NCBI RefSeq assembly: GCF_003675855.1
Contig: NZ_RCIH01000009.1
Coordinates: 124,001-188,000 of the forward strand
Direction: 5' to 3'
DNA from: Halostella salina
Lineage (GTDB): Archaea; Halobacteriota; Halobacteria; Halobacteriales; Natronoarchaeaceae
DNA length: 64,000 bases
In this document: positions 18,408 to 33,492 of the stretch, one piece after another
Layout: every line of letters starts with the position of its first letter
Position numbering within the stretch: position 1 is the stretch's first letter
Position numbers and translations under genes: made by a program
Notes under the pieces: model-generated
What the model saw: only the letters and a program-made list of their open reading frames with translations
Database searches by the model: none
Told to the model about the DNA's origin: nothing

Positions 18408-18893
18408 ACTGCTACGACCTGCTTGGATGCGAGGGTGTCATACAGCGGTTCTCATAGCTGTTATTCACCCCCCCAATTTGCTCAGTATAGGGAGTTCACA
18501 TACTAATCAAAGATAAGCAACAGGTCGAGAGCTGAAGCTCCACTCGATCGTGCTATCTATCCGCTCTTACATCGTGATACCTATAATTCCGAACCATTCG
18601 GGCTTCTTCGTCGTGTGTTCAGTGAAGTCAACCAACAGCCAGAATTGTAGGATGGAACTCCTCAAGCGATCGGGTGTATTAGTCACTAACCGTGACGTAG
18701 TCATCGAACATTTCAACACCCTTATCGAGGACCCCGAGATTTCGGAGAGATCCTGAACAGGTTTTTACAGTAGAGGTGTTTGTGAGAGTCGTCGGTAGCG
18801 ATCTGCGGCCATTCTAACTTTTTAATGGATCTGCCTGAAGACCCGTCTGTGTCTGGGACAGAATTATATCACGGGAATTAGTTTGCTTGTTGC
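18408..18893. other. Intergenic region before the addB operon
   Basis: 486 bp without a convincing gene. A 68-codon frame (18550-18756) has no recognisable features. The TATA element ATTATATC at 18862-18869 lies 25-32 bp before the addB ATG at 18894, consistent with a leaderless promoter for the whole AddB-AddA-protease operon. Confidence 0.5.
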
Positions 18894-21800
18894 ATGGCTA
18901 ATGGCTGTGATTTTCTCACCAGTCCCTCCTTCGACGCGCTTCAATCTGAGGTGTTTGAACGGGTTGCTGAACAGGCTGGCGGCGAGCCCGGCAGCATCCT
19001 CTACATCGAGAACAACGACCATCGCACGGATGAGGTCGCCGACGCGTGGGCCGAGACTTACCAACCACTCCGACTTCGAGTAACCGATTTCAATACTGTC
19101 GTCGGGGAATGCTACGAGCGGATCGCTGACCCGAGTTCTCTTCTGGATGCGCTGACTCGGCGCCGGTTAATCGACCGAGCGCTTCGAACTGCCGCTGACC
19201 GTGGTCTCTTGGACGATGCGCATCTCTATCGAGACCACTTCACCGATCTTATTACAGAACTGGAGGGAGAGGGCTACCACTCCCCTGAATCAGTTCGAAC
19301 CCTCGTCGAGAATTCCCAGTTATCACCTGGAACCATTGATCTGGTCGCGAGCGTGTATGAGGAGTTCTACGAGCTCCGTCGAGAAGGTGTCGGGGATGAC
19401 GTGTACACCCTTAGTGAGGCGTACCGGACGGTCCTCGATAGCGGAGCTTCCCTTACGGAGATCTTCCCTCACGTCGACGTCGTCGTAATCTCTGGATTCT
19501 ACGACCTGTCCCACCACGAGAAGCGTTTTATTCACCGACTAGCCACCGTATTCCCTGTCTGTATCTCGCTCCCCCTGGCCGACACAGAAACGCCGTCCGG
19601 TGGAGCAAACCAGATCACTGCTGACGCGATGGAGACGTACCAGGCAATTGCTGGCCCACCGACCGCTGTCACTCCCGATTCTCCGAGTTCACTCATCGAC
19701 GCTGCTGGAAAGCTCTATACGCCATCTCCAGGGGTTGACGAGGATACGGCTCCTCCCGACCAGCTTCAATGGTACAGCGCCCCCACACCAGATCGAGAGG
19801 TTAGACAAGTTGCTCGAAGGGTGCGGAAACAGCTCGCGGACGGCGCCGACCCCAACGACATTCTGGTTGTCATTCCGGGTCTAATCTCGTATCAGGAGCA
19901 AGTCGCCGACGTATTCGAGGCCGCTGGTATCCAGTCGGTCGGGTTTGCGAACAAACTGCTGTATCAGACGTATGCTGGGCGGGCAATGCTCGATCTGGCT
20001 GAACTCTGTGTCGACGACCCACGCACAGATACGGTAGCTCGTCTCGCGACGAATCCGCTCGTGACTCTTGGAGGAGCCACCGACGACGTTGATCGGTCCG
20101 CTGTTGCTGACCTCGCCCGCCGTCTTCCGACAGTCGATACTGACCGACTTCTCGAGGAACTCGACGATGCCTCCGCTGAGGTGTTGGAGAACCTCTTCCA
20201 GGTCGCCGACGATGCTGAGGCCGCGGAGGCCGACGACGTCGTTGAAGCCGTGCACACTGTGTTCGAAACCGTCGATCTCTCTGAAAACGTCGACTCTATC
20301 GAAGAAGATGCGGCGTCATTCGATGCTCGAATGGAGGTCGCGTCCTACAATCGGGTCGAGAGGGTGTTTGATGCGATCGAATTCGTGGCTGAGCGCTTTG
20401 GAATAGACGAGCCAATCGAAGAAGTGGCCGATGCACTTGAGAAGGTGCGGGTTCCCCCACCGAGTCAATCTACACAGGATGTCGTCGAGATCGTTGGTCC
20501 ACGCGATGCCTACATGCAGTCCTATTCGCACCTGTATTTCGTCGGGTTGACCGAGCAGGACTTCCCCGTCGAGAAGGATCGACCTCTCTTTTTCGAGCGT
20601 CTGTTCGACGACATCCCCGACCTCTCGTTCACCGATGACCGAGCTGAGTCCCGCTACCAGTTTGCTACCTTGCTCTCAGGTGCCGAGAGCGTCTACATTA
20701 CGACCCCCGAGACATCATTTGATGACGATGACCTGCTTGAGTCGTCGATTCTCGATGAACTCGCTCGAGTAACTGGCCTTGAGCCAACGCCTGATGATCT
20801 TGGGAATGCCGTTCCCGAAGATGTCCAGCGGGCCCTTCGTCATCACCGAGATAGGGAGGGACGGGAGGAAGCCGTTAAGCACGCTGCTGACTCCGGAGTA
20901 TTCTCGCGACAGCAGGCCGAGCGCGTCGTGGCGGGTACGAGGTGCGCTGAAAGTCGAGCTGACGCCGGACTATCCGCCCACGATGCACAGCTTGATCCCG
21001 AATTGGTCTCGGAGCTCCACGGTGAACGTGGGCCGTACAGCCCGACGCAGCTGAAAGATTACGCTCAGTGTGGGCACGCCTACTATATGAAACGGATACT
21101 GGGCATCGAAGCGCCCGACGAGTTCCATCTCGAGCCTCAGAAAGTCGATCTCGGGAGCCTCGTCCACGATATCTTCGAGGAGTTCTATCGCGGGCTCCAG
21201 GATGACCACGGCGATCCAGTTGACCTCAGTGAATATGATCGAGAATTCCTCGAAGAACAGCTGTTGGAGCAGACACGAGATAGCCTTGCTGACTCCGACA
21301 TCGACTTCGACGACGTGTTCTATAAACGGTGGCTGGAACAGCTCCTTGCTGGGCTCGCGACGCCCGACGTGAACGAGTACTTCGGTGATGATCGACCTCA
21401 TCAGGGAATCGATCGAGGACTCTTCGTCCGGTTCCTTGATGCGGAGCACGACGACAACGACGATGTTCCGGCATGGTTTGAGGTGCCGATGGACTTCTCG
21501 GATTCGGAAGAGGGCGAGATCACGGTGACGACGCCGGATGGAAGAGAGATATCCGTCGGGGGATTCATCGACCGCGTGAGCCTTCGCGAACAGGACGATG
21601 GTACCATCGAAGGATTAGTTCACGACTACAAGACGAGCGACCCAGAAACCATTCAGACAATCGACGGTATCGAATTTCAGCTCCCGCTCTATATACTTGC
21701 CACACGAGCAGAACTAGCAGCCCGATACGAGGATACACTTGCCGATGTGGACGGGGAATTCTATGTAACGGAGCCCCCGACAGAGATTACTCGAAAGTGG

Positions 21801-22109
21801 AGTCTTCGATACTACCTTGAACGGAACGATGGAACTGACGAGGACTACGAGCGGTTCCTCACAGAAACCGTCCCATCGCGAGTTGGCGAGGTAGCTGACG
21901 GCATCGAGAATGGTGCTTTCCAAACGACCACGCTTTCGCCGAAAGAAGCGGGCTGTCGCTACTGTGACTATCGGGACATCTGCGATGTTCGACACCACCA
22001 ACGACAAGAGATAATCCAAGAGATGGATCGCTCCGATTCGTCCGGTTATATCCCACAGAGGGCGCGAGATGGGTCGTTCTTGGATACGCTTGGGGGTGAA
22101 GACGGATGA
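18894..22109 (+). CDS. addB: AddB-like nuclease subunit with Fe-S cluster
   Basis: 1071 residues, usual AddB length. The N-terminal part is a degenerate UvrD-type fold without a Walker A, as in Chi-scanning AddB subunits. The C-terminal nuclease has the AddB Fe-S staple: one cysteine in YAQCGHAYYMKR (about residue 725) and three in CRYCDYRDIC (about 1020-1030), with the nuclease core FIDRVSL ... GLVHDYKTS (about 890-915) between them. The gene overlaps the next by 4 bp (ATGA). AddAB unwinds and degrades DNA ends to give 3' tails or destroy foreign DNA. Haloarchaea normally process ends with HerA-NurA and Mre11-Rad50, so an AddB is unusual and points to transfer from bacteria. Confidence 0.88.
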   Translation: MANGCDFLTSPSFDALQSEVFERVAEQAGGEPGSILYIENNDHRTDEVADAWAETYQPLRLRVTDFNTVVGECYERIADPSSLLDALTRRRLIDRALRTAADRGLLDDAHLYRDHFTDLITELEGEGYHSPESVRTLVENSQLSPGTIDLVASVYEEFYELRREGVGDDVYTLSEAYRTVLDSGASLTEIFPHVDVVVISGFYDLSHHEKRFIHRLATVFPVCISLPLADTETPSGGANQITADAMETYQAIAGPPTAVTPDSPSSLIDAAGKLYTPSPGVDEDTAPPDQLQWYSAPTPDREVRQVARRVRKQLADGADPNDILVVIPGLISYQEQVADVFEAAGIQSVGFANKLLYQTYAGRAMLDLAELCVDDPRTDTVARLATNPLVTLGGATDDVDRSAVADLARRLPTVDTDRLLEELDDASAEVLENLFQVADDAEAAEADDVVEAVHTVFETVDLSENVDSIEEDAASFDARMEVASYNRVERVFDAIEFVAERFGIDEPIEEVADALEKVRVPPPSQSTQDVVEIVGPRDAYMQSYSHLYFVGLTEQDFPVEKDRPLFFERLFDDIPDLSFTDDRAESRYQFATLLSGAESVYITTPETSFDDDDLLESSILDELARVTGLEPTPDDLGNAVPEDVQRALRHHRDREGREEAVKHAADSGVFSRQQAERVVAGTRCAESRADAGLSAHDAQLDPELVSELHGERGPYSPTQLKDYAQCGHAYYMKRILGIEAPDEFHLEPQKVDLGSLVHDIFEEFYRGLQDDHGDPVDLSEYDREFLEEQLLEQTRDSLADSDIDFDDVFYKRWLEQLLAGLATPDVNEYFGDDRPHQGIDRGLFVRFLDAEHDDNDDVPAWFEVPMDFSDSEEGEITVTTPDGREISVGGFIDRVSLREQDDGTIEGLVHDYKTSDPETIQTIDGIEFQLPLYILATRAELAARYEDTLADVDGEFYVTEPPTEITRKWSLRYYLERNDGTDEDYERFLTETVPSRVGEVADGIENGAFQTTTLSPKEAGCRYCDYRDICDVRHHQRQEIIQEMDRSDSSGYIPQRARDGSFLDTLGGEDG

Positions 22110-25100
22110 CGGGTATCGACGATGCGCCAGCGTCGACGGACGACGAAGGCGAAGAGGAGCTCTCCCCAACAACTGAACAGGAGGAGGCTCTGGAACTCGA
22201 TCAGAATATCGCGATTACCGCTGGGGCAGGCACTGGAAAGACCACAACCTTGACTCTCCGTTACCTCGAGATGCTGGAGTCCGACCCCGACATCGGGCCC
22301 GAGAACATCGCGACGATCACGTTTACGAACGATGCCGCGAATGAGATGCGGGAGCGTATCCGGGAAGAAGTAGCTGAGCGTCTCAGTGAGGTCCCCGAAT
22401 CAGACGAGTACGACTACAGTCGATGGCGCAGCATCAAGGACGATTTGGAAGACGGCTATATTCATACCATCCACGGCTTCTGTTCTCGGCTGCTCCGCGA
22501 GTACGTCGTCGAAGCCCCGGTCCAACCCGAGTTCGACACGCTGGACGAGGCCGATTCCAAGGTGTTGATGCAGGAGGTGGTCAGGGAGACGATTGACGCT
22601 CGCTGGGAAACGGATGAGGATATTCGCCGCCTCGCTCGACTCTGGAGTCGAGATTCTCTTGAGCAGGTTCTGGCCGGTCTACTCAACAGCCGCCCGATGA
22701 GTACTGAATGGGCGAATCGCTGGGAAGACGAGTCCGTAGATGCATATTTGGACCATGTCTGGAGGACGTTCTATCCGACGGATCAGGAGACTGCTGAGGA
22801 TTACCTTAGCGACCCGTCAGTACAGGCCGCTTTGAACACCATTTGCGACCTCTACGACCAAGAATTCGACATCGATCCTAGTGATAACGGGATGGATTTC
22901 CTGGAGACCGTCTCTACTATCGCACGTGAAACCGGAATTCACACCGGCGAGGCAGAAGGAAGAGAGTGGCAACGAGCCTTCGACGTTATTTGTGACCGAC
23001 TGACGACTGGGAGTGGTAGCAGATACAGCCGACGTCACTGGTACCGGGGGTCCAAGTCGAGCTGGAGTGCTCACGAGGGCGAGCAGGAGCAATTAGACGC
23101 AGCTGCAGATGCGCTTCTGGAAGCGATCGAACCTGAGGAGCGAGAGTTCATCGGCGGTCTCGATACCGAGTGGAACAGTAGTCATTACGTCCTGAGCCTT
23201 GCTCGGCTCTACTGCACTGTTCTGGACGAATACACACAGACGAAATCGGATCAGAATGCTCTGGACTATCACGACCTCATCCAGACCTGCATCGAGTTCC
23301 TGAACGCGGACGACCGCGTCTGCGAGCAAGTTCAGTCACAGTTCGAGTACGTAATGGTCGACGAGATGCAGGATACTGACCTGCTCCAGTGGGAGCTCAT
23401 CAAACTCTTGACTGCCGGCGATACCGATGATTTTGACGCTCAGAACGTCTTCTTGGTCGGTGACGAGAAACAGAGCATCTACCGATTCCGTGGCGCCGAC
23501 GTGACCACCTTCGGTTCGGCTCGTGAGGACCTCGCTGCGGCTAATCCGGACGATGTCGAGACTACCAAGCAGCTCAGAGGCAATTTCCGCACGATTCAGG
23601 AGACGCGGGAGTTCCTGAACGCGCTCTTCGACAAGGTATTCGAGCCGATGGGCGACGAGTACCGCGACTATGAAGCCAAGCCGCAGGAACTTACGGATGA
23701 ACGCCGGCAGGGACGTGATGTCACCGGATCAGTCGAGTACCTGCTCGTGCCTGACGATGACGTCCCGGAACTCCACGGTACCGATTACTTGAATCAAACT
23801 CCTCGATTCGCTGGGCACGGCGAACGAGAAGCTCACGCGCTTGCCAGCCGTCTCACCTCGTTACTGGACGATCCTCCGGAAGTCTACGATGACGACGAGG
23901 AATGCCTTCGACCTGCGAAACCCGAAGACGTCACCATCCTGTTGCGCGCTCGCACCCGGCTCAAGGAGCACGAACGAGCGCTGGATGCATACGGAATTCC
24001 GTATACTGTCGTTTCGGGTACTGGGTTCTGGGACGCCCCCGAGATCACAGCCTTGGTCAATCTGTTTAGGTTCTTCGAGAACCCGGACGACGACATCGCT
24101 CTCTACGGTGTCCTCCGGTCGCCACTGTTTGGTTTCCCCGATGAGGATCTCGCCCGACTCCACTCCGAGGATCAGCCACTCTGGATTGCTCTCCAGACAG
24201 CTGAGGATGATCTCGGCGACGCTGCCCGTCTCCTAGACGAGTGGCGGCAGATCGCTGCTGTCAACGACGATGTAACGGTTGACACGACTGTTCCGTGGGG
24301 AACGTTGCTTTCCCGGATTATCGACGATACCGGGTATATCGCCAGTGTCGGGGCAGATGAACGCCCGCGACAGGCGGCAGTGAATATCAACAGGTTCCGC
24401 GAACAGGTTCGCGCCTGGGAAGAGGGTGGCGTCAAGACTGTCTCGGAACTCCTCACGCGAATCGACCGTCGGAAGGAAATCGAATCCCACGCTGACGAAG
24501 CGACTATTCCCGAAGATGCTGACGGCGTCCAGATTCGAACAATCCACTCGGCGAAGGGGCTTGAGTTCCCTATCGTCGCAATTCCAGAAGTGGGCACCGA
24601 GTTCAACTTTCAGGGGGATGTCGACGACTACGGGAAAGTCTACCTCGACGAGCTTGACGTCGGGGATGGCGAGTCAGAACCCGTGCTCGGTCTGAAAGCT
24701 CCGTCAGCCGACGATCCCTATGAGCACCAGAATACGCTCGCTCGGACGCGGCTTCAGGAGGAGGTCCGAATGCAGGAACGAGCTGAACTGAAGCGTCTCC
24801 TCTACGTCGCAGCGACGCGGGCCCGTGACCACCTGCTCTTCAGCGGCGTTCACTCTACCGACGCTGATGAGGAGGATGGCTTGGGGTTAGGTGACCCGAA
24901 TGATGCCGCGGATGCACGATACTGGCGTGATTGGCTCCAACCGATTCTCTTGGAAGACGAGGACGGTGATGCAGGACATATCTTGAGACAGCTCTCCGTC
25001 GGGGCAGATCATACGACCACTATCCGTGGGAGCGAATACACAGTTCGAACACCAACCGCTCCTGTCCACGATTGGGACGCGTCAGCGGCAACTGAGCGCG

Positions 25101-25828
25101 ACTACCCTCAGATTGACATTCCTGCTCCAGAACTGTCCACTCCCCCGACGTCGATCACGGCCACGAATTTTGCGAAAGCACTCTCTCCGGATGATACAGC
25201 CATCTACACTGACGAACTCGAGGAGGACGCCGCGAGCCTCGAAACGGATGGCCTTCAGGCCAACCATCTGGGAACGATCGTCCACAAGCTCTGTGAGCTA
25301 CGACCTGCTCGAGACCGGTGGCGCTCCATCGCGGCTCGGCTGGGTTCTGCTTTGGATGATACGGTGACTGATGGGGATTTGGATCGGATCGAAGAGTATA
25401 CTGAGCGCTGCCTACAGTTCCGTGACGGCGTCGCCGACGACGAGTTGCCGACAACCATCCACGAGGAACTCTCGGTTGTGACGCGATTGGAAGCCGGCCG
25501 AATCGTCGGCGATATCGACCTGCTTCTAGTCAGTCCAGACAGCTACCACGTTATCGACTACAAGACGAACGACACCTCTCAACGGTCGGTCGACGACCTC
25601 GCAGAGAAGTACTGGCCACAACTCGAAGTGTATGCAGCTGCCCTCTACCAGAACGACGATTCCCGAATCGTTCACACCACGCTGTACTTTGCCGACGCTG
25701 ATGAGCATCGGACCACGACCCACGACATGCTTTCGTTGGATATTCTTGGTGATGACCTGAACACACAACTTGAGGGGTTAACGCAGTCCGACGGCGCCGC
25801 AGTCCGAGGAGAATCGAGCAATTTCTGA
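22106..25828 (+). CDS. addA: AddA-like UvrD-family helicase-nuclease
   Basis: 1240 residues. Helicase motif I AGAGTGKTT (about residue 38), Ia ITFTNDAANEM, II VDEMQDTD (about 418), III GDEKQSIYRFRGAD (about 451), V IRTIHSAKGLEFP (about 812), VI LLYVAATRARDH (about 900). The C-terminal RecB-type nuclease has GDIDLLLVSP ... HVIDYKTN (about 1135-1155). All core residues seem intact. It forms the heterodimeric motor-nuclease with the product of the overlapping addB gene. The next gene starts 126 bp downstream. A combined role in end resection and attack on invading DNA is expected from the family. Confidence 0.93.
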   Translation: MTGIDDAPASTDDEGEEELSPTTEQEEALELDQNIAITAGAGTGKTTTLTLRYLEMLESDPDIGPENIATITFTNDAANEMRERIREEVAERLSEVPESDEYDYSRWRSIKDDLEDGYIHTIHGFCSRLLREYVVEAPVQPEFDTLDEADSKVLMQEVVRETIDARWETDEDIRRLARLWSRDSLEQVLAGLLNSRPMSTEWANRWEDESVDAYLDHVWRTFYPTDQETAEDYLSDPSVQAALNTICDLYDQEFDIDPSDNGMDFLETVSTIARETGIHTGEAEGREWQRAFDVICDRLTTGSGSRYSRRHWYRGSKSSWSAHEGEQEQLDAAADALLEAIEPEEREFIGGLDTEWNSSHYVLSLARLYCTVLDEYTQTKSDQNALDYHDLIQTCIEFLNADDRVCEQVQSQFEYVMVDEMQDTDLLQWELIKLLTAGDTDDFDAQNVFLVGDEKQSIYRFRGADVTTFGSAREDLAAANPDDVETTKQLRGNFRTIQETREFLNALFDKVFEPMGDEYRDYEAKPQELTDERRQGRDVTGSVEYLLVPDDDVPELHGTDYLNQTPRFAGHGEREAHALASRLTSLLDDPPEVYDDDEECLRPAKPEDVTILLRARTRLKEHERALDAYGIPYTVVSGTGFWDAPEITALVNLFRFFENPDDDIALYGVLRSPLFGFPDEDLARLHSEDQPLWIALQTAEDDLGDAARLLDEWRQIAAVNDDVTVDTTVPWGTLLSRIIDDTGYIASVGADERPRQAAVNINRFREQVRAWEEGGVKTVSELLTRIDRRKEIESHADEATIPEDADGVQIRTIHSAKGLEFPIVAIPEVGTEFNFQGDVDDYGKVYLDELDVGDGESEPVLGLKAPSADDPYEHQNTLARTRLQEEVRMQERAELKRLLYVAATRARDHLLFSGVHSTDADEEDGLGLGDPNDAADARYWRDWLQPILLEDEDGDAGHILRQLSVGADHTTTIRGSEYTVRTPTAPVHDWDASAATERDYPQIDIPAPELSTPPTSITATNFAKALSPDDTAIYTDELEEDAASLETDGLQANHLGTIVHKLCELRPARDRWRSIAARLGSALDDTVTDGDLDRIEEYTERCLQFRDGVADDELPTTIHEELSVVTRLEAGRIVGDIDLLLVSPDSYHVIDYKTNDTSQRSVDDLAEKYWPQLEVYAAALYQNDDSRIVHTTLYFADADEHRTTTHDMLSLDILGDDLNTQLEGLTQSDGAAVRGESSNF

Positions 25829-25954
25829 GCTAGTCCAGGATCACCAACGCTATTCCTGCTCTGGAACTCCTCTACCCCCAATTCCTATTCTCAACCCTCG
25901 GAATTTAAAGCGAAAACTTATATCACTCGACAAGGCGTACACACGTAATAGCGT

Positions 25955-26407
25955 ATGACTCGATGGCGAGCGAAGCGCCGGTACGAGGCAAACCGGCGGT
26001 TCGGCGAGCGTGCAGATGAGGCGCTCGTAGCCATCTCTATCCTCAAAGCTAAGCGCGACGGCATCGATCTCGAGCAGAGTGAGGACGACTTGCGAGCGAA
26101 ACTTGAATCAGGCCGCCACCTACTTGAGCAAATTCGCGACGCGCTCGATGAAGATCCGAACGCTGACCCGTATGAATTAGCCATCGCTGAGCAGATTCAG
26201 GAGAACGCGATTACTGCACGCTCCCGGTTGGTCGGCGATTTCGATGACCTGATTGAGGTCATGGAAGCCGCTGAAGAGACCCTCACCTATCAACAGGGTC
26301 TTGATGACGTCCGTGAAAAGTTGAAGGAGATCTCGGAGACCGCGAACCGCACTTCTCGAGATAGTATCAATCGTATGCGGGGTACTCTTGCCAACGGAAC
26401 TCGCTGA
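25955..26407 (+). CDS. Small coiled-coil protein between addA and a metalloprotease
   Basis: 150 residues, almost entirely helical and charged, basic at the N-terminus (MTRWRAKRRYEANRRFGERAD) and heptad-like from about residue 70 (IAEQIQENAITARSRL...). No known motif. A TATA-like ACTTATATCA lies at 25916-25925, about 30-39 bp before the ATG, so it may have its own promoter as well as read-through from addA. It overlaps the metalloprotease gene by 20 bp, which implies translational coupling. It may be a regulator, inhibitor or substrate of the protease; that is inferred only from coupling. Confidence 0.7.
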   Translation: MTRWRAKRRYEANRRFGERADEALVAISILKAKRDGIDLEQSEDDLRAKLESGRHLLEQIRDALDEDPNADPYELAIAEQIQENAITARSRLVGDFDDLIEVMEAAEETLTYQQGLDDVREKLKEISETANRTSRDSINRMRGTLANGTR

Positions 26408-27506
26408 GTCCCAAGTTGCGTTTCTTCGGGGCAAATTCGAGGCCGCCCGCGAAGTCTTGGATTCTCTCGATACTCGGATTCCTGTGACAGATTCGATTTA
26501 CAGCTCCGTGGAGGATGGATTCGATAATATCGAGGAAACGCGTTCTCTCTACGAGCGAGCGTACGACCAGGAACCGGATGCAGAAGCGACTCACGAACTG
26601 TATGAAGAGTATCTAGGAGCCATCGATACTGTTGCCCTAGAGCTCCAAGTTCTGGAGACGGAACTTGTTTACTTAGATCTACATCAGTATCAACGCAATT
26701 CGGCTACATCTGGCCGGCTTGACCATGCATCGTCGATCTCATCTGAGCTCGAGGATGCATTTGGAATCGATATTACAGTCCTCCCGGTGATCTGGAATGG
26801 ATTTGCGATCGATCCTCTTGATGAAAATATTCCTGCGACTGGTGATCTGAGCCAAATTTACGCCCTCATCCTCCCTAGAACCCAGAGTGACCCAGAGGTC
26901 TATGCCCCGATATTCGCCCATGAAATCGCGCATGCGGTCTTGGACCGACACGACGAACTAAGGACGGGCTTCAATAATGCCGTAAGAGAAATCCAGGGAC
27001 GAACCCGGCAAGAGATTGATGATGAGGCTCAGTTTGCACGCTCGTGGCGGGCTTGGTTTGAGGAACTGTTTTGTGATGTCTGTGGAGTATTGACTTTTGG
27101 GCCGTCTTATCTCGCTTCGCTTGTTAGGCACCTTCATCATTCCAATCCGTATTATATTGAGGAGGATCCAGATGGAGACCTACATCCACCGCCTGCACTT
27201 CGGTTCGATCTTGTGATGGATCTCTCTGACGAGTACTTCCCGAACCTTCTGAACGGGATTCGAGATGACCGTATCGCGTTCGAACGCCACCTCGATGCTC
27301 TGGAACACAGTCAGCCTCGAATATACGACACCTACGACTACGGTGAGCTCAGGACATTCATTACACAAGAGGTTCCGGCATCGGTCGATCATGATCTCGA
27401 GGCACTCGTCGACGACATCACAGCCGGTGTGACTCCTGATGACCGGCCGGAACGATCTCACCGGTTAGCCGCAAACCAATATTGGCTGGATACCTATCCA
27501 CCTTAG
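26388..27506 (+). CDS. Zinc metalloprotease (gluzincin-like)
   Basis: 372 residues from a TTG at 26388, the only start compatible with the frame; it lies inside the upstream gene. The catalytic motif is HEIAH (178-182), and a candidate third ligand follows in FEELFCDVCG (224-233), the E-x-x-x-D pattern of gluzincins. The first 120 residues are helical. No signal peptide or membrane segment, so it acts in the cytoplasm. Residues 237-260 (GPSYLASLVRHLHHSNPYY) form a helix next to the active site. It shares its last 4 bp with the convergent Argonaute gene. A cytoplasmic protease in an AddAB operon suggests activation or removal of a partner after DNA damage or infection. Confidence 0.82.
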   Translation: MPTELAESQVAFLRGKFEAAREVLDSLDTRIPVTDSIYSSVEDGFDNIEETRSLYERAYDQEPDAEATHELYEEYLGAIDTVALELQVLETELVYLDLHQYQRNSATSGRLDHASSISSELEDAFGIDITVLPVIWNGFAIDPLDENIPATGDLSQIYALILPRTQSDPEVYAPIFAHEIAHAVLDRHDELRTGFNNAVREIQGRTRQEIDDEAQFARSWRAWFEELFCDVCGVLTFGPSYLASLVRHLHHSNPYYIEEDPDGDLHPPPALRFDLVMDLSDEYFPNLLNGIRDDRIAFERHLDALEHSQPRIYDTYDYGELRTFITQEVPASVDHDLEALVDDITAGVTPDDRPERSHRLAANQYWLDTYPP

Positions 27507-29698
27507 AACGGCGGGTAGGTGAGGCGTGAAACACGGTCGTGACTGAGACGACTATTCATTCTCCGAGTGAGGTACACCGTCAGAGGGTCTTTGATTCCCT
27601 TTGAAGGCGCGCCCCAATTCAGTTCCGAGAGATAGAACGCATCCCGTCCGACTGAGTAAATGTCGAAATCTCCCTCTTCAACGGAAATCTCACAGAGAAT
27701 CGGCTGCGGGGTCCCCTCACCTAGTCGGGGTGCATCGGTCGTGACAATCAGGACGGTCTCATCATCCAGCTGAGCATACGAACCCATATCCGGCATTCCG
27801 TCGTCGTCGTAGATGCGATAGGTGGGAGAATGTTGGACGTCGACGCCCACCCATTCGAATGACTCAGTTACGAAATCATTTGATTTCAGATACTCTACCC
27901 CCTCTTTGAGGCCGGAGATCTCATCGTCGCCGAGGTACCCGTTTCGGTGAATCGTGAGGGAACTCAGTTGATCGAACCCAGAGCGAGGATCGTTGACCGC
28001 ACCCTGAACGGCCCGAATCAGAATCTGCTTCGCCATCCCTTGGTTCGTCACCGTACTTCGCCCGGTCGGATTCGTCTCCTCTGTTTGATAGAGAATCTGG
28101 TTGTCAGTACCTGAGACTACTACTCCGCTAGCAACGGTTCGGTCACGACCTGTTACGCTAAGTCCGAGGTAGGCGTCTGTATCGAGCTGATTCTCGATGC
28201 TGAATGGAATCACGCCTAGCTTTACCCCTAACCCGACTGCCGTGTTCGAAATGACATCGGCCTCGTGTCCCGACCGCTGGGCGCTTCGCAGATTCGTTGC
28301 GGTTAACGATTGGAGCGGCTTCCCGTCCAGTATCTCGATCAATTTGTGGTAGACATCTTCGTCGTATTCGGGGAGATACCCAAAGCCGGCGTCGACATCC
28401 TCAAGCGAGCGTTGCCATTCTTCGACCTCTCGCGGGTCCTCGTAGTTGACTCTTCCAGGCCGATCCGAGAGGATGAGTCCAAGGTGTTCCTCAACATATT
28501 CTCGCACCTGCTGATAGGCACTGAGCGCTTCGTCTTCCGTCCCCTCTGGGAAGAGGACAGCCACACTGAAATCCTGGTCAAACGTGCGTCGAGGGCCGAC
28601 TTCCTCGAGATACCCCTGCTTTGCTGGGTTCCAGTATTCTTGGGTGAGATCGCTGCCGTCAAAGCTGATGTTCGGTCGCCCAATCGCCATTTCCGTTGAA
28701 GGGTCGTCGCCAAACGTCAGTACCGGATAACCGTATGCGCTGATCCCGTCGCGTACCGATGATGGGCTAATGTCGGTCTGGATAGAGCCGATACTGATGT
28801 CCCCGATCAGCTCACGGAAGTCTTCGACTCTTTGCCATCGCTCCTGAGGCCCGAACGTCGCCCGTTGGCTGATTTCGTCCGGGCGATCCTCAGACGGTGC
28901 AAACAGGAGTAACGACGGAGCAGCTGGGTACCAATCACTATTCCCGTACTGAATTTTGACGGTTGGCTCAGATGGATCTATGCTGTCGGCATATCGCTTC
29001 CCATGCCGGCTCTCGATCTCATCTAGTGTCTCGTTGTCGAACCGGCCGGGTGGAATCTCGGAGACTGTCGTGTTCTCAAAGACTCCCGTGACAGTGCAAG
29101 AAGACCGCTCCGAGGTTTGGTAGATGAATGTACGCCCGACGAGTTCGTCGTTGACTCGATCTATTCCCCAGTCGGGGTGATTTAGATAGTCTGCTAGCGT
29201 CCTCGATCCGAATGCACCTAACGTCGGATCTAATGTGATGAGAGGTCGGTCGTGATGACTAATTCGTACTTCGACGCCGGGGTGGACATCGTATCCTTCG
29301 ATACGCGCTTCTCGGTCCTCATGATAGAACGTGTTTCTCGTAGAGTCGTACCAGTAATTGTCCGCTTCGAGATCATCTTTCAGTTCCTCGATTATCGCTT
29401 CCTGTAGAACCTTGAAATCGATCCACACAGAGAAATCGAGTTCGGATTCATGTGCGAATTCTAGCTCCGCTCCGTCCGCAGATTGAATCGTTCCATAATC
29501 CCGCTCGGTGCCGATTACTGCGATATAATGGCGACCGCCTTGGTTGTACCAACGTGCCCTCCCACCTACATTCCTTTCGAGGATTGTGGCGTGGGCATTG
29601 AGGAGGGAGTAGTTATCGTTGGGCTGGGGATCGATATCATAGAGGTCCGCAGTTACTGACGGCACGTCGATTTCAAACGAATTGATGAACCGACCCAT
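27503..29698 (-). CDS. Prokaryotic Argonaute, long form, PIWI probably catalytically inactive
   Basis: 731 residues. N and L1 regions (1-180), a PAZ-like region around residues 185-260 (ELVGRTFIYQTS...), a MID domain (about 355-470: NPAKQGYLEEVGPRRTF, then YHKLIEIL ... PLQSL for 5'-end binding), and PIWI (about 480-731: YLGLSVTG, LTIHRNG, SPTYRIYD, GTPQPILCE, LSELNWGAPSKG). In active enzymes the first PIWI Asp lies where S514 is, and the HRDG Asp is N586 here. Two of the expected catalytic acids are thus replaced, so it likely binds guide and target without cutting and recruits an effector. It converges with the protease gene and diverges from a CoiA-like nuclease. Family call rests on motif pattern. 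Confidence 0.82.
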   Translation of the reverse strand: MGRFINSFEIDVPSVTADLYDIDPQPNDNYSLLNAHATILERNVGGRARWYNQGGRHYIAVIGTERDYGTIQSADGAELEFAHESELDFSVWIDFKVLQEAIIEELKDDLEADNYWYDSTRNTFYHEDREARIEGYDVHPGVEVRISHHDRPLITLDPTLGAFGSRTLADYLNHPDWGIDRVNDELVGRTFIYQTSERSSCTVTGVFENTTVSEIPPGRFDNETLDEIESRHGKRYADSIDPSEPTVKIQYGNSDWYPAAPSLLLFAPSEDRPDEISQRATFGPQERWQRVEDFRELIGDISIGSIQTDISPSSVRDGISAYGYPVLTFGDDPSTEMAIGRPNISFDGSDLTQEYWNPAKQGYLEEVGPRRTFDQDFSVAVLFPEGTEDEALSAYQQVREYVEEHLGLILSDRPGRVNYEDPREVEEWQRSLEDVDAGFGYLPEYDEDVYHKLIEILDGKPLQSLTATNLRSAQRSGHEADVISNTAVGLGVKLGVIPFSIENQLDTDAYLGLSVTGRDRTVASGVVVSGTDNQILYQTEETNPTGRSTVTNQGMAKQILIRAVQGAVNDPRSGFDQLSSLTIHRNGYLGDDEISGLKEGVEYLKSNDFVTESFEWVGVDVQHSPTYRIYDDDGMPDMGSYAQLDDETVLIVTTDAPRLGEGTPQPILCEISVEEGDFDIYSVGRDAFYLSELNWGAPSKGIKDPLTVYLTRRMNSRLSHDRVSRLTYPPF

Positions 29699-29722
29699 TG
29701 TCTTCTATTCCCTGTTGACAGG

Positions 29723-29730
29723 ATATAATA
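29723..29730 (-). promoter_or_regulatory. TATA box of the Argonaute gene
   Basis: ATATAATA on the + strand, 25-32 bp before the ATG at 29698 on the minus strand. A second AT-rich element, ATTCTATAGG at 29848-29857, lies 24-33 bp before the divergent CoiA-like gene. Confidence 0.6.
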
Positions 29731-29880
29731 CCCCGCGGTTCTCCGCTGAATTGCTAGTGATTGGGGTGAGAAAATCGATCTAACCATGCCACGAAGTACT
29801 TATTCTAGATTTATTTCTCAATCGAGGGCCGCAATAGGGGCATTATTCTATAGGTGGAGTGCTAAGCTGCGACAGCTAGT

Positions 29881-30987
29881 ATGCCGTTCTTGGCCCTCCA
29901 CGACGGTACCGAGGTTATCCCGAATCAGGTACAGAAAGGGGATTTCCTCGAGTGCTCGAAATGCGGCGATCAATTAAAAATTCGCAACTCCCATCGCCGG
30001 ACGGGGTCGTTCGTCGCGCGGCATTTCTACCACGCTGCTGAAGAGGAGACGGACTGTGGCGGTGAATCTCCACCTCATTTGCGGATGAAGTCGATCGCGT
30101 ATTCGAAGCTCACGACCGAGTATCCCGACGCCACAATAGGACTAGAACAGCAGCTGGGTGACCGGCGTGCCGATATTCTCGTTGAGTTTCCACAGCCTCG
30201 ATTCCCTGAGGGCCGTGGGATCGGCGTCGAAGTACAGCACAAACACGAGGACAAGGATGTCGATGCAGTAACCGCTGAGTATCTCGCTGCAGAGTATAGT
30301 GTCATCTGGCTGGGAGAAGAGGACTTCTCCGGATTCAACGTCGATCTCTCTGGCATTCTCTCGACTTGGCCTCACGCGGTCCAACACGACTTCAGCGACG
30401 GGTATCACGGCGTCATCCACTGGCTCCGACAACCAAAGCCAGCCAATCCCTCGATAGACGTCGTCCTCCCGCGAGAATATCTAGCTGAACACAGCGAGGG
30501 GCTTCGTCGAGCATGGGAGTACGGGAAGTTCGATCAGGGAGGCCAATCGGACTGGAACGATCTCGGATTCTGGTGGTTGAGTGCCTCGTATGACCCGTAC
30601 CAGAAGTGGTTCAAACTCACCGAGACGCCTGACGGGCGGACGATGCTTCAGCTCGGGAAGCAGGTCCGCGGTACTGAACACGTGCTCGCTCCAGTTCAGA
30701 CTGGACACTCTCGGAATCGGGGGAAGGTTCACAGCTTGGCTTACGAGGTGGATTCAGCAGATACCTCCGCTGGCGAATGGGCAGATATCGAAAAGGCGTG
30801 GCTGGAAACCGGCTTACAGAGCACTTCAGTTATCTTCAAGCTCGTTGCAACCCCGAGCGGGGAGATCGCTCTATCGCTGGGAAAGTACAAGGAACACAGC
30901 GACGACGGCGAGTTCATTACCGTCTCTACCGAGTTCCAGCGTAATCTCAAAGAAAACCTTCACGAACTGGCTAACCTATTGGGATGA
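29881..30987 (+). CDS. CoiA-like nuclease with N-terminal zinc ribbon
   Basis: 368 residues. An N-terminal zinc-ribbon-like motif C25-x2-C28 with a further cysteine at 59, then H66, then a CoiA-type nuclease core: LRMKSIAYSKL, GDRRADILVEF (D98) and GIGVEVQHKH (E117, Q119), then VIWLGEE. The ExQ variant of the PD-(D/E)XK core is typical of CoiA-like proteins. CoiA enzymes are competence or defence-associated DNA nucleases. The C-terminal 200 residues are a separate unknown domain rich in beta strands. It is divergent from the Argonaute gene, sharing a spacer of 182 bp, and is 63 bp upstream of the GmrSD-like gene on the same strand. It is a candidate effector for the inactive Argonaute. Confidence 0.8.
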   Translation: MPFLALHDGTEVIPNQVQKGDFLECSKCGDQLKIRNSHRRTGSFVARHFYHAAEEETDCGGESPPHLRMKSIAYSKLTTEYPDATIGLEQQLGDRRADILVEFPQPRFPEGRGIGVEVQHKHEDKDVDAVTAEYLAAEYSVIWLGEEDFSGFNVDLSGILSTWPHAVQHDFSDGYHGVIHWLRQPKPANPSIDVVLPREYLAEHSEGLRRAWEYGKFDQGGQSDWNDLGFWWLSASYDPYQKWFKLTETPDGRTMLQLGKQVRGTEHVLAPVQTGHSRNRGKVHSLAYEVDSADTSAGEWADIEKAWLETGLQSTSVIFKLVATPSGEIALSLGKYKEHSDDGEFITVSTEFQRNLKENLHELANLLG

Positions 30988-31050
30988 CCTGATGTGGCCC
31001 GGAAACCCGCCCACAACGGTAAATGGACGGACTACAAACAGCAGTCAATA

Positions 31051-33492
31051 ATGTCGGACGAGGCTGACGATTTGTATGATAAGTACATCGACTACGATGG
31101 CAGAGATCTCGATACCCGGAATGTCGGTGATGGGAAGGTAGTTCGGCCGATTACGGCCGAGAATTTCGAGATGGAGAAACGGACTCTGGGGGAGGTCCTC
31201 ACCGATCAGAAGTTCAACGTACCAGAGTACCAGCGACTGTACTCGTGGAAGAACATCCACCACGAACAGTATTGGTCGGACATCGTGCAGTTCGTGAATG
31301 CCGACCTAGTCGCTGACCGACGCGAAGTGTCGGACGTGTTCTTCAGCTCGATGTACTTCGCGGTCAACGACGACAAACAGGTGTACGAGGTCATCGACGG
31401 CCAACAGCGCCTGACGACGACACACCTGCTGTTGCGCGTCCTTATGGAGCACCTCGAGGATGTCGACCCAGCTTCTATCGAGGACGATACCCTGGCGGAG
31501 TTTCGGGACTACGGGATCGGACGAATCACCGATATCCTCTATGTGGAGGAGATGTTCGGCAAACGTGAGCCTCGGCTCACGCTGAACAAACACGACGCTG
31601 AATTTTTCAAAGCCCTCATGATGGGGCCCTCCGCCCAGGTGGACTACCTCAAGAACGAGGCCGACTTCAGCATTCACGGGAACAACAGCGATGCAGTACA
31701 AGTCTCGGAATGTCTGGACCGGTTCGGTACCACGGACGATGAACTCGCGGACTTGGATACTGACTCGCTGTCCTTAGGGGCGTTCTTCAAACTGTACCGC
31801 TCACACCGGCGGTTGTTGAACGCTTACGAGTTCTACGACGAGAAGATTAGCGGCGTCGTCGCCGACGCCGAGACGCCGGACGAGACTGTGCGAGCGCTCG
31901 TGAATATCCTTAACTACGTCTACAACTCCTACCACGTCGGGGAGTACCTGATTCGAGAGGCGGAGTCGGATTTCCGGATGCAGATCTTCGAGATTTTGAA
32001 CGACCGCGGCGTCGATCTGACGAAAATCGACCGTATCAGGGCGGCGGTCGTGAACGCGTTCTTCGATACCGACGTGAAAGACGAGTACGTCGACAAGTGG
32101 GAGGATATCGTGGTGGCGTTCGCAACCGATGGTGACGCCATCGACGACTACCTCTCGATCTATCTAAGTATCGTCGACGATGGCATCGACAGGATTGGTG
32201 ACGCGAGCGCCGAACTGACCAACGCCTTCGACACGAGGAACATCGACTCGGATGTCGTCCCGCGGCTTCGGAATCTCGATGAAGCGAAGGCCTTCCTCGA
32301 CTACGCGCACGACCTCGTCCACTACTACCAAGATATCACGACCACGGAGCTCGCCGCCGAGGACCTTGAGTTAGCCAGTCACCGAGATCAGTGTCGGGAA
32401 ATCCTTGTTCGCCTCAATAACCAACAGATGGATCAGTGGCGGCCATTCGTCCTGGCGCTCTACTATCACACCAATCCTGAATCGGAACGGGATGCAGCAC
32501 AGTTCCACCGCGTACTAGAGACTATCGAGAAACTCAACCTGCGACGGCTCCTCATCTCTGAACGACCGAGTATTTTCCGCGAGGTCTTCATCGAGGCCGT
32601 TGAGGAGTTCAATCTCGCACCAACTGCCGACGCCACTCCAGATAGTGTATACGAGCCCTCTCGAGAGTACCTCATCACCGAGATGCGTTCCTCTACGCCG
32701 ACGCTGTTCGGCGACCGGTTTGTCGATACGGTCGTTCAGACGCAGTCCTGGAGTACCGGAACGGCGCGACTGCTCTTCGGGAAGATCGCACAGGATCACT
32801 TCGACGACAGTAGTCGTGCCGTCGAACGAGACCTGAACATGGGGAACATACATCTCGAACACGTCCTCCCGCAGACTCCCGTCAGCGACCCGGAAGACCC
32901 GACGTGGCTTCGGGAGTTTTTCAAACTCGACTCGGAGCCGAACATCGAGATCGCGTCAGAGATCGAACGCTATATCGAGCTAGTGCAGCGCTCTGATCTC
33001 GACGAAGAGGAGGAGCGACTGAAAGACAATATATCGGAGTTCATTACACAGGGGTTCATCGACGATATCGGGAACTTCCTCCTGCTCCGTGACACCGATA
33101 ATATCGGGGCGAGTAATCGGCCACTCGCCGAGAAGATGACGCAGTACTACTCCGAAATCGACGGTTTCGCCAGTATCTACCCCAATCGATATTTCACGGC
33201 CGAATACGGCAACGTCGATCGCGACTCCCTCGACAAACTCCGTGAGCAGCACGATGGCGGTGACGTTTCGAATGTGGACGCCGATGTAGTGGCGTATTTC
33301 AACTCCTTCTGGACCTACGAGACTCTGCAGGATCGACGAATTGAGCTCCTCTTGGATATTCTGTCGACGCTTGGGTTCGATTCGTTTGAGGACGAGTTCG
33401 GGATTGAATCCGACCAAGATGAGGTACGCCACGAAATTCGAGAGAAGACGGACCAAGAGTTTGAGAAACGTCTGTCTGTCCGATCGCTTTAA
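31051..33492 (+). CDS. GmrSD-type restriction protein (DUF262 + DUF1524 HNH)
   Basis: About 813 residues from the ATG at 31051; an in-frame GTG at 30994 adds 19 poorly conserved-looking residues. The N-terminal DUF262 domain has FNVPEYQRLYSW and the signature DGQQRLTT (about 115-122), a ParB-like nucleotide-hydrolysing fold. The C-terminal DUF1524 domain has HLEHVLPQ (about 600), the HNH-type His-x-x-x-P. These two domains make a fused GmrSD/BrxU-type type IV enzyme, which cuts modified phage DNA using NTP hydrolysis. Catalytic motifs appear intact. It is probably co-transcribed with the CoiA-like gene and adds to the defence island. Confidence 0.9.
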   Translation: MSDEADDLYDKYIDYDGRDLDTRNVGDGKVVRPITAENFEMEKRTLGEVLTDQKFNVPEYQRLYSWKNIHHEQYWSDIVQFVNADLVADRREVSDVFFSSMYFAVNDDKQVYEVIDGQQRLTTTHLLLRVLMEHLEDVDPASIEDDTLAEFRDYGIGRITDILYVEEMFGKREPRLTLNKHDAEFFKALMMGPSAQVDYLKNEADFSIHGNNSDAVQVSECLDRFGTTDDELADLDTDSLSLGAFFKLYRSHRRLLNAYEFYDEKISGVVADAETPDETVRALVNILNYVYNSYHVGEYLIREAESDFRMQIFEILNDRGVDLTKIDRIRAAVVNAFFDTDVKDEYVDKWEDIVVAFATDGDAIDDYLSIYLSIVDDGIDRIGDASAELTNAFDTRNIDSDVVPRLRNLDEAKAFLDYAHDLVHYYQDITTTELAAEDLELASHRDQCREILVRLNNQQMDQWRPFVLALYYHTNPESERDAAQFHRVLETIEKLNLRRLLISERPSIFREVFIEAVEEFNLAPTADATPDSVYEPSREYLITEMRSSTPTLFGDRFVDTVVQTQSWSTGTARLLFGKIAQDHFDDSSRAVERDLNMGNIHLEHVLPQTPVSDPEDPTWLREFFKLDSEPNIEIASEIERYIELVQRSDLDEEEERLKDNISEFITQGFIDDIGNFLLLRDTDNIGASNRPLAEKMTQYYSEIDGFASIYPNRYFTAEYGNVDRDSLDKLREQHDGGDVSNVDADVVAYFNSFWTYETLQDRRIELLLDILSTLGFDSFEDEFGIESDQDEVRHEIREKTDQEFEKRLSVRSL

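Follow-up and report, generated by a model that had tools for sequence, protein, structure and literature searches.

Linkage of a full-length Argonaute to a predicted zinc metalloprotease in a mobile haloarchaeal cassette and its bacterial relatives

Guide-directed sensing is coupled to a protease in Craspase, in which a CRISPR-linked cysteine/CHAT protease accompanies Cas7-11. Prokaryotic Argonautes (pAgos) have been described with other partners. The long-B systems BPAN, BPAS and BPAM encode a PD-(D/E)XK nuclease, a Sir2 protein or a membrane protein downstream of the Argonaute in one operon (Song et al., 2023, PMC10620215), haloarchaeal pAgos with an intact DEDX tetrad have been reported with a PLD nuclease partner, APAP (PMC11442185), and CbAgo cooperates with a DNA-end machine of the RecBCD type (PMC10164581). 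Here we analysed a stretch of 64,000 nt from Halostella salina (NZ_RCIH01000009.1; hereafter the window, whose positions are used as coordinates) in which the gene for a full-length Argonaute faces that of a predicted zinc metalloprotease. The pair suggests an immune system not yet described, one that may work by proteolysis. An Argonaute-protease system was not found in the full-text literature, a search that left preprints and most subscription journals uncovered, and a prior description is possible; the text of PMC10620215 has protease only in a reagent note, and text look-ups in two large pAgo surveys gave no mention of a protease.

Relatives of the full-length Argonaute were present in 10 of 384 haloarchaeal genomes and relatives of the protease in exactly those 10, with the two genes adjacent and convergent every time. 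In the window the two open reading frames (ORFs) meet tail to tail and share 4 bp. A profile built from 19 archaeal and bacterial proteases detected no further protease in the 378 of these genomes that it was run against; its eight extra matches scored 6e-5 or worse and were confined to the N-terminal part of the profile, leaving the catalytic region uncovered. The distance matrices of Argonaute and protease correlate (r=0.95-0.96, Mantel p=0.0002). In an Argonaute tree, whose long branches make finer placements unsafe, the protease-linked Argonautes lie on one side of a single fully supported branch that separates them from 15 other haloarchaeal Argonautes, and none of these 15 distant proteins adjoins a protease gene. 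The Argonaute-protease linkage is solid, and the mechanism proposed below is what we infer from it. The obligate partner of the Argonaute is the protease, not AddAB or the CoiA-like nuclease encoded nearby.

The pair also occurs outside haloarchaea, where bacterial members were sought in plasmid and contig collections. Searches by tblastn with a cyanobacterial protease and with a cyanobacterial Argonaute led to the same five bacterial plasmids, from an Aphanizomenonaceae cyanobacterium, Runella, Emticicia, Spirosoma and Rhizobium. On all five the order is PD-(D/E)XK nuclease, Argonaute, small protein, protease, in one direction and one operon; the first gene of the Emticicia operon is unannotated and has no Pfam match. 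The operon is headed by a helix-turn-helix (HTH) gene in Runella and Rhizobium and by a sigma-70 gene in Emticicia and Spirosoma (L148 4908-5507; L150 4894-5499). On a plasmid of Deinococcus sp. KNUC1210, a PDDEXK/UvrD pair sits beside an Argonaute whose gene converges on that of an outlying member of the protease family. The pair was also present in one Thermoplasmatota metagenome-assembled genome, with no second case among 60 genomes of that class. A small protein-protease-Argonaute module also lies on contig IMGVR_UViG_3300034378_000255 (L125), a virus- or provirus-like sequence that carries genes for terminase, tail and integrase. The protease search returned none from a phage collection and this one contig only from viral contigs; the Argonaute search of viral contigs returned none. 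Profile comparison by hhalign shows the proteases of haloarchaea and bacteria to be homologous (E=4.3e-14).

The window Argonaute is real but cryptic. Pfam Piwi matches it only at E=0.11, far below the cut-off, and a Piwi family search of its own genome gave no match because the sequence is too divergent. Its identity as a full-length pAgo is settled by the PADLOC profile match (Table 1), a local sequence match to VbAgo and the predicted fold. A full-length Argonaute model aligns with residues 3-717 of 731 (1.8e-55). The best Foldseek match of the predicted structure was the Argonaute of Pseudooceanicola lipolyticus (PliAgo, E=4.8e-33), and PliAgo, TtAgo and CbAgo were all matched at E<=1e-25 over about 800 columns, with a mediocre model (pLDDT 71) and low TM scores. 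Relatives are labelled hypothetical protein in nearly all plasmid records (the Rhizobium protein is named Piwi domain-containing). Given these labels and the score below the Pfam Piwi cut-off, the system has probably been overlooked for that reason.

The catalytic aspartates of VbAgo, defined by mutants of that protein, align to S514 and N586 of the window Argonaute, which thus lacks the intact DEDX tetrad of catalytically active (long-A type) Argonautes. Across the alignment, the two slicer aspartates are never both kept in the haloarchaeal members (12 of 12) and are both kept in all eight bacterial, Thermoplasmatota and virus-like members. Since slicer residues are lost in the haloarchaeal branch, the output there must come from another protein.

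The protease carries the motif HEIAH at residues 178-182, and both HExxH and a downstream ExxxD are retained in 20 of 20 proteases compared; H178, E179, H182, E226 and D230 are invariant across the family alignments. With the HExxH motif and a downstream glutamate ligand conserved, the protein is predicted from sequence to be an active zinc metalloprotease, gluzincin-like in type. Its structure model (pLDDT 86) gave no significant match in a fold search of the PDB and of viral models, and long N-terminal helices dominate it. The only solved proteins that the protease profile touched in the catalytic region were IrrE (3dte, E=0.27) and CapP (7t5t, E=0.42), both non-significant. In all 10 haloarchaeal genomes the gene immediately before that of the protease, in the same orientation, encodes a small helical protein; in the window the two ORFs run in the same direction and share 20 bp. 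The small protein of the virus-like contig had no significant similarity to the haloarchaeal small-protein family.

These genes travel together. Positions 18835-29797 are 96.4% identical at the nucleotide level to Halobacterium salinarum plasmid pKBTZ03_58, and positions 18853-29763 are 83.1% identical to Halorubrum sp. 48-1-W (G108), with different flanks in both comparisons. The shared block of 10.9 kb contains the genes for AddB, AddA, the small protein, the protease and the Argonaute and no others; it stops short of the CoiA-like gene (Table 1). This five-gene cassette has moved intact between plasmids, and most known members of the system are plasmid-borne. The seven ORFs, coordinates and domains of the initial annotation were borne out by an ORF check and by Pfam, PADLOC and NCBIfam profiles. 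Its proposal that AddAB, protease and Argonaute belong together is likewise supported, by the common cassette and by the fact that 7 of the 10 genomes have an AddAB-type pair no farther than 8 kb from the Argonaute-protease core. Elsewhere, the module is found twice on one plasmid, with one copy broken, in Halosimplex aquaticum (L118/L121) and Halorussus caseinilyticus (L143/L144), and an IS5 element lies between Argonaute and protease in Natrinema caseinilyticum (L145).

Table 1. Coordinates of the cassette, its genes and the two genes that follow it
Feature	Position	Strand	Basis
Mobile cassette AddB-AddA-small protein-protease-Argonaute	18835..29797	.	Nucleotide identity to other plasmids; flanks differ
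AddB-like PD-(D/E)XK nuclease subunit, 1071 aa	18894..22109	+	PDDEXK_1 7.4e-28; TIGR02773 addB 9.7e-15
AddA-like UvrD helicase-nuclease subunit, 1240 aa	22106..25828	+	UvrD-helicase 1.8e-61; PDDEXK_1 8e-10; TIGR02785 addA 8.5e-112
Small helical (coiled-coil) protein, 150 aa	25955..26407	+	Precedes protease in 10/10 haloarchaeal genomes
Predicted zinc metalloprotease, 372 aa	26388..27506	+	HExxH 178-182 and E226xxxD230
Full-length Argonaute without slicer residues (S514, N586), 731 aa	27503..29698	-	PADLOC pAgo 4.5e-69; PliAgo fold match
CoiA-like nuclease, not part of the system	29881..30987	+	Near-identical copies elsewhere beside GmrSD without Argonaute
GmrSD-type DUF262/DUF1524 enzyme, not part of the system	30994..33492	+	PF03235 6.7e-27; PF07510 1.1e-07

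The CoiA-like nuclease had been put forward as the effector of the Argonaute, a role that is not supported and that we reject. Its gene, for which the sole domain match was a weak one to DUF7830 (E=0.016), is present in 106 of the 384 genomes and lies next to this Argonaute only in the window. Copies that are 95-97% identical occur on other replicons in several genera, again next to this GmrSD gene but with no Argonaute. The GmrSD gene carries both defining domains, DUF262 (PF03235) and DUF1524 (PF07510). The two genes are a separate mobile pair unrelated to the Argonaute system, and the cassette ends before them. At other sites (L112-L115, L165), the pair corresponding to window positions 29881-33492 adjoins a divergent gene of 301 aa.

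The two large cassette genes carry the expected motifs of a DNA-end machine. AddB has a PDDEXK_1 domain with DYKT911 and the four-cysteine pattern C726/C1021/C1024/C1030, and in AddA the Walker A motif, DEMQD and DYKT are intact. Judged on these motifs, the adjacent AddA (UvrD helicase plus nuclease) and AddB (nuclease with a 4-Cys cluster) are of the AddAB type, although both TIGR scores in Table 1 fall below the NCBIfam equivalog cut-offs. An archaeal AddAB had been considered unexpected, a view that did not hold: relatives of the window AddB are found in 85 of the 384 genomes, mostly without this Argonaute, which makes an AddAB-type enzyme ordinary in haloarchaea. Judged by the refuting condition set with the initial proposal, AddAB mostly occurs without the Argonaute, but the protease never does. 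Of 18 haloarchaeal loci, 12 have an AddAB-type pair no more than 5 kb from the core, and in 9 of these 12 the pair immediately precedes the small gene and shares its strand. The AddB partners form at least three groups that BLAST does not relate to each other at a significant level. At three haloarchaeal loci (L098, L101, L144) the Argonaute has an SbcCD-like pair as a neighbour. AddAB is thus a frequent but optional partner. The 15 distant, protease-free haloarchaeal Argonautes (L126-L140) often adjoin SbcCD-like, MrfA/MrfB-like or AddAB-like genes. A second AddAB-like pair (about 860 + 950 aa), at times in 2-3 copies, was seen in most of 12 haloarchaeal genomes tested, for instance at C1:1714446-1718367 and C1:2136208-2140228 of genome G385. 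TFB genes recur near the haloarchaeal core (L097 5697-6638, L102 5089-6168, L104 18238-18873, L118 6653-7642, L120 3197-3964, L145 9017-9760).

We regard as somewhat probable a defence module in which an Argonaute sensor gates a dedicated zinc protease and DNA-end machines supply guides or substrate. A more specific version is possible but falls a little short of an even chance: once loaded with a guide, the Argonaute would detect nucleic acid of the invader and turn on the protease as the immune output, in archaea, in bacteria and on the virus-like contig, with interchangeable DNA-end-resection modules. For guide loading, activation, the protease substrate and the role in defence, we infer the following course. 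The constant parts would be the Argonaute and the zinc metalloprotease, joined in most members by the small helical protein. Guides loaded on the Argonaute would come from foreign DNA or its transcripts; in haloarchaea, the neighbouring AddAB, SbcCD-like and other helicase-nucleases may cut up invader DNA and so yield guides or single-stranded targets. Target pairing would then cause the Argonaute to unleash the protease, probably via the co-encoded small protein, and proteolysis of some protein would be the output, upon which the infected cell would stop growing or die, or a further effector would be released. The case for the protease as the output relies mainly on its constancy across members, one branch of which can dispense with slicing. 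AddAB is a plausible candidate for the guide supplier, and DNA-end processing that feeds the Argonaute is a reasonable idea for which the comparison is stronger than a single locus would show.

Several observations weigh against this scheme. In haloarchaea the convergent protease and Argonaute genes do not share a transcript, and no operon therefore couples their dosage. Slicer residues are retained in eight members, in which the protease could be auxiliary, and the small proteins of bacteria and haloarchaea share no significant similarity. The 7 of 10 genomes with an AddAB-type pair near the core compare with about 0.09 expected from genome-wide counts, an expectation that ignores defence-island clustering. 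The excess is modest against the CoiA-like control, of which 2/32 lie near AddB compared with 3/3 for the core; after near-identical loci were collapsed, the core stood at 2/2 versus 2/32 for the control (p=0.01). No AddAB was found nearby in 6 of the 18 haloarchaeal loci, and in 5 of these 6 no SbcCD-like pair was seen either.

The best alternative is a regulatory protease like PprI/IrrE or CapP, which single-stranded DNA (ssDNA) from AddAB or the Argonaute would activate to cleave a repressor or the small protein and turn the operon on. PprI senses ssDNA and cleaves DdrO (PMC10904395), IrrE and CapP are the solved proteins whose catalytic region the protease profile weakly touches, and HTH or sigma-70 genes head bacterial operons as TFB genes lie near several haloarchaeal loci. 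The IrrE/CapP match is below significance, however, the haloarchaeal loci have no HTH gene in common, and repressor-like genes vary between loci whereas the protease is invariant. We therefore consider such a regulator unlikely, though worth keeping in mind beside the protease as immune output.

It is improbable that the small protein and protease form a toxin-antitoxin-like plasmid stabiliser, with the Argonaute restraining a protease that kills once the Argonaute is lost or sequestered. Such a unit would fit the 20-bp overlap, the unfailing succession of the two genes in haloarchaea and the plasmid location of most known members, but it has no need for a full-length Argonaute every time or for a recurrent DNA-end-processing neighbour, and in Deinococcus and Thermoplasmatota the module showed no recognisable small protein. 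We give slightly less credence still to a unit for DNA repair or completion of replication, in which AddAB or SbcCD would work with a guide-binding Argonaute and the protease would clear DNA-protein blocks. SbcCD-like or AddAB pairs do adjoin many haloarchaeal Argonautes, and TtAgo is described as helping to complete DNA replication (PMC10269773); the patchy, plasmid-borne spread (10/384), the cassette transfer between distant hosts and the virus-like contig fit accessory defence better. Coincidence in a defence island, with separate functions brought together by chance, holds for the CoiA-GmrSD pair and would suit the 85 genomes with AddAB, mostly without this Argonaute, but is very improbable for the system as a whole, and chance adjacency of Argonaute and protease is ruled out by their 10/10 linkage in haloarchaea and its recurrence, with the genes arranged differently, in bacteria and in other archaea.

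If an Argonaute-gated protease is confirmed, proteolysis would be a fourth kind of output beside the nucleases (including PLD), NADases and membrane proteins reported for prokaryotic Argonautes in the literature consulted, and the pair would be a natural guide-programmed protease switch. Because slicer-competent and slicer-dead branches share the same protease, the role of slicing is directly testable, and the recurrent non-orthologous AddAB and SbcCD neighbours make the origin of guides testable inside one cassette.

Among known systems, BPAN, BPAS and BPAM are similar in that a full-length Argonaute without slicer activity has its own partner, which co-evolves with it and may provide the output. 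The present system falls outside that group, since its invariant partner is an HExxH protease encoded convergently in haloarchaea. APAP likewise joins a haloarchaeal Argonaute to an associated enzyme, but the haloarchaeal Argonautes studied here never retain both slicer aspartates, a protease is their partner, and no PLD match was found among the flanking proteins scanned, which sets the system apart from APAP. CbAgo is an active slicer that works with housekeeping RecBCD, whereas the AddAB of the window has genes for a slicer-dead Argonaute and a protease as its neighbours. That AddAB has the 4-Cys nuclease of AddB and the helicase-nuclease motifs of AddA; it differs from described AddAB in its sub-equivalog scores and its place inside an Argonaute-protease cassette. 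PprI/IrrE and CapP come close as zinc peptidases that act inside the cell in connection with DNA damage or immunity, and the profile of the predicted protease weakly touches them, yet there is no significant sequence or PDB fold match, and the invariant partner here is an Argonaute rather than a repressor. With Craspase, the system would have in common guide-directed sensing coupled to a protease, in this case an HExxH zinc protease that accompanies an Argonaute.

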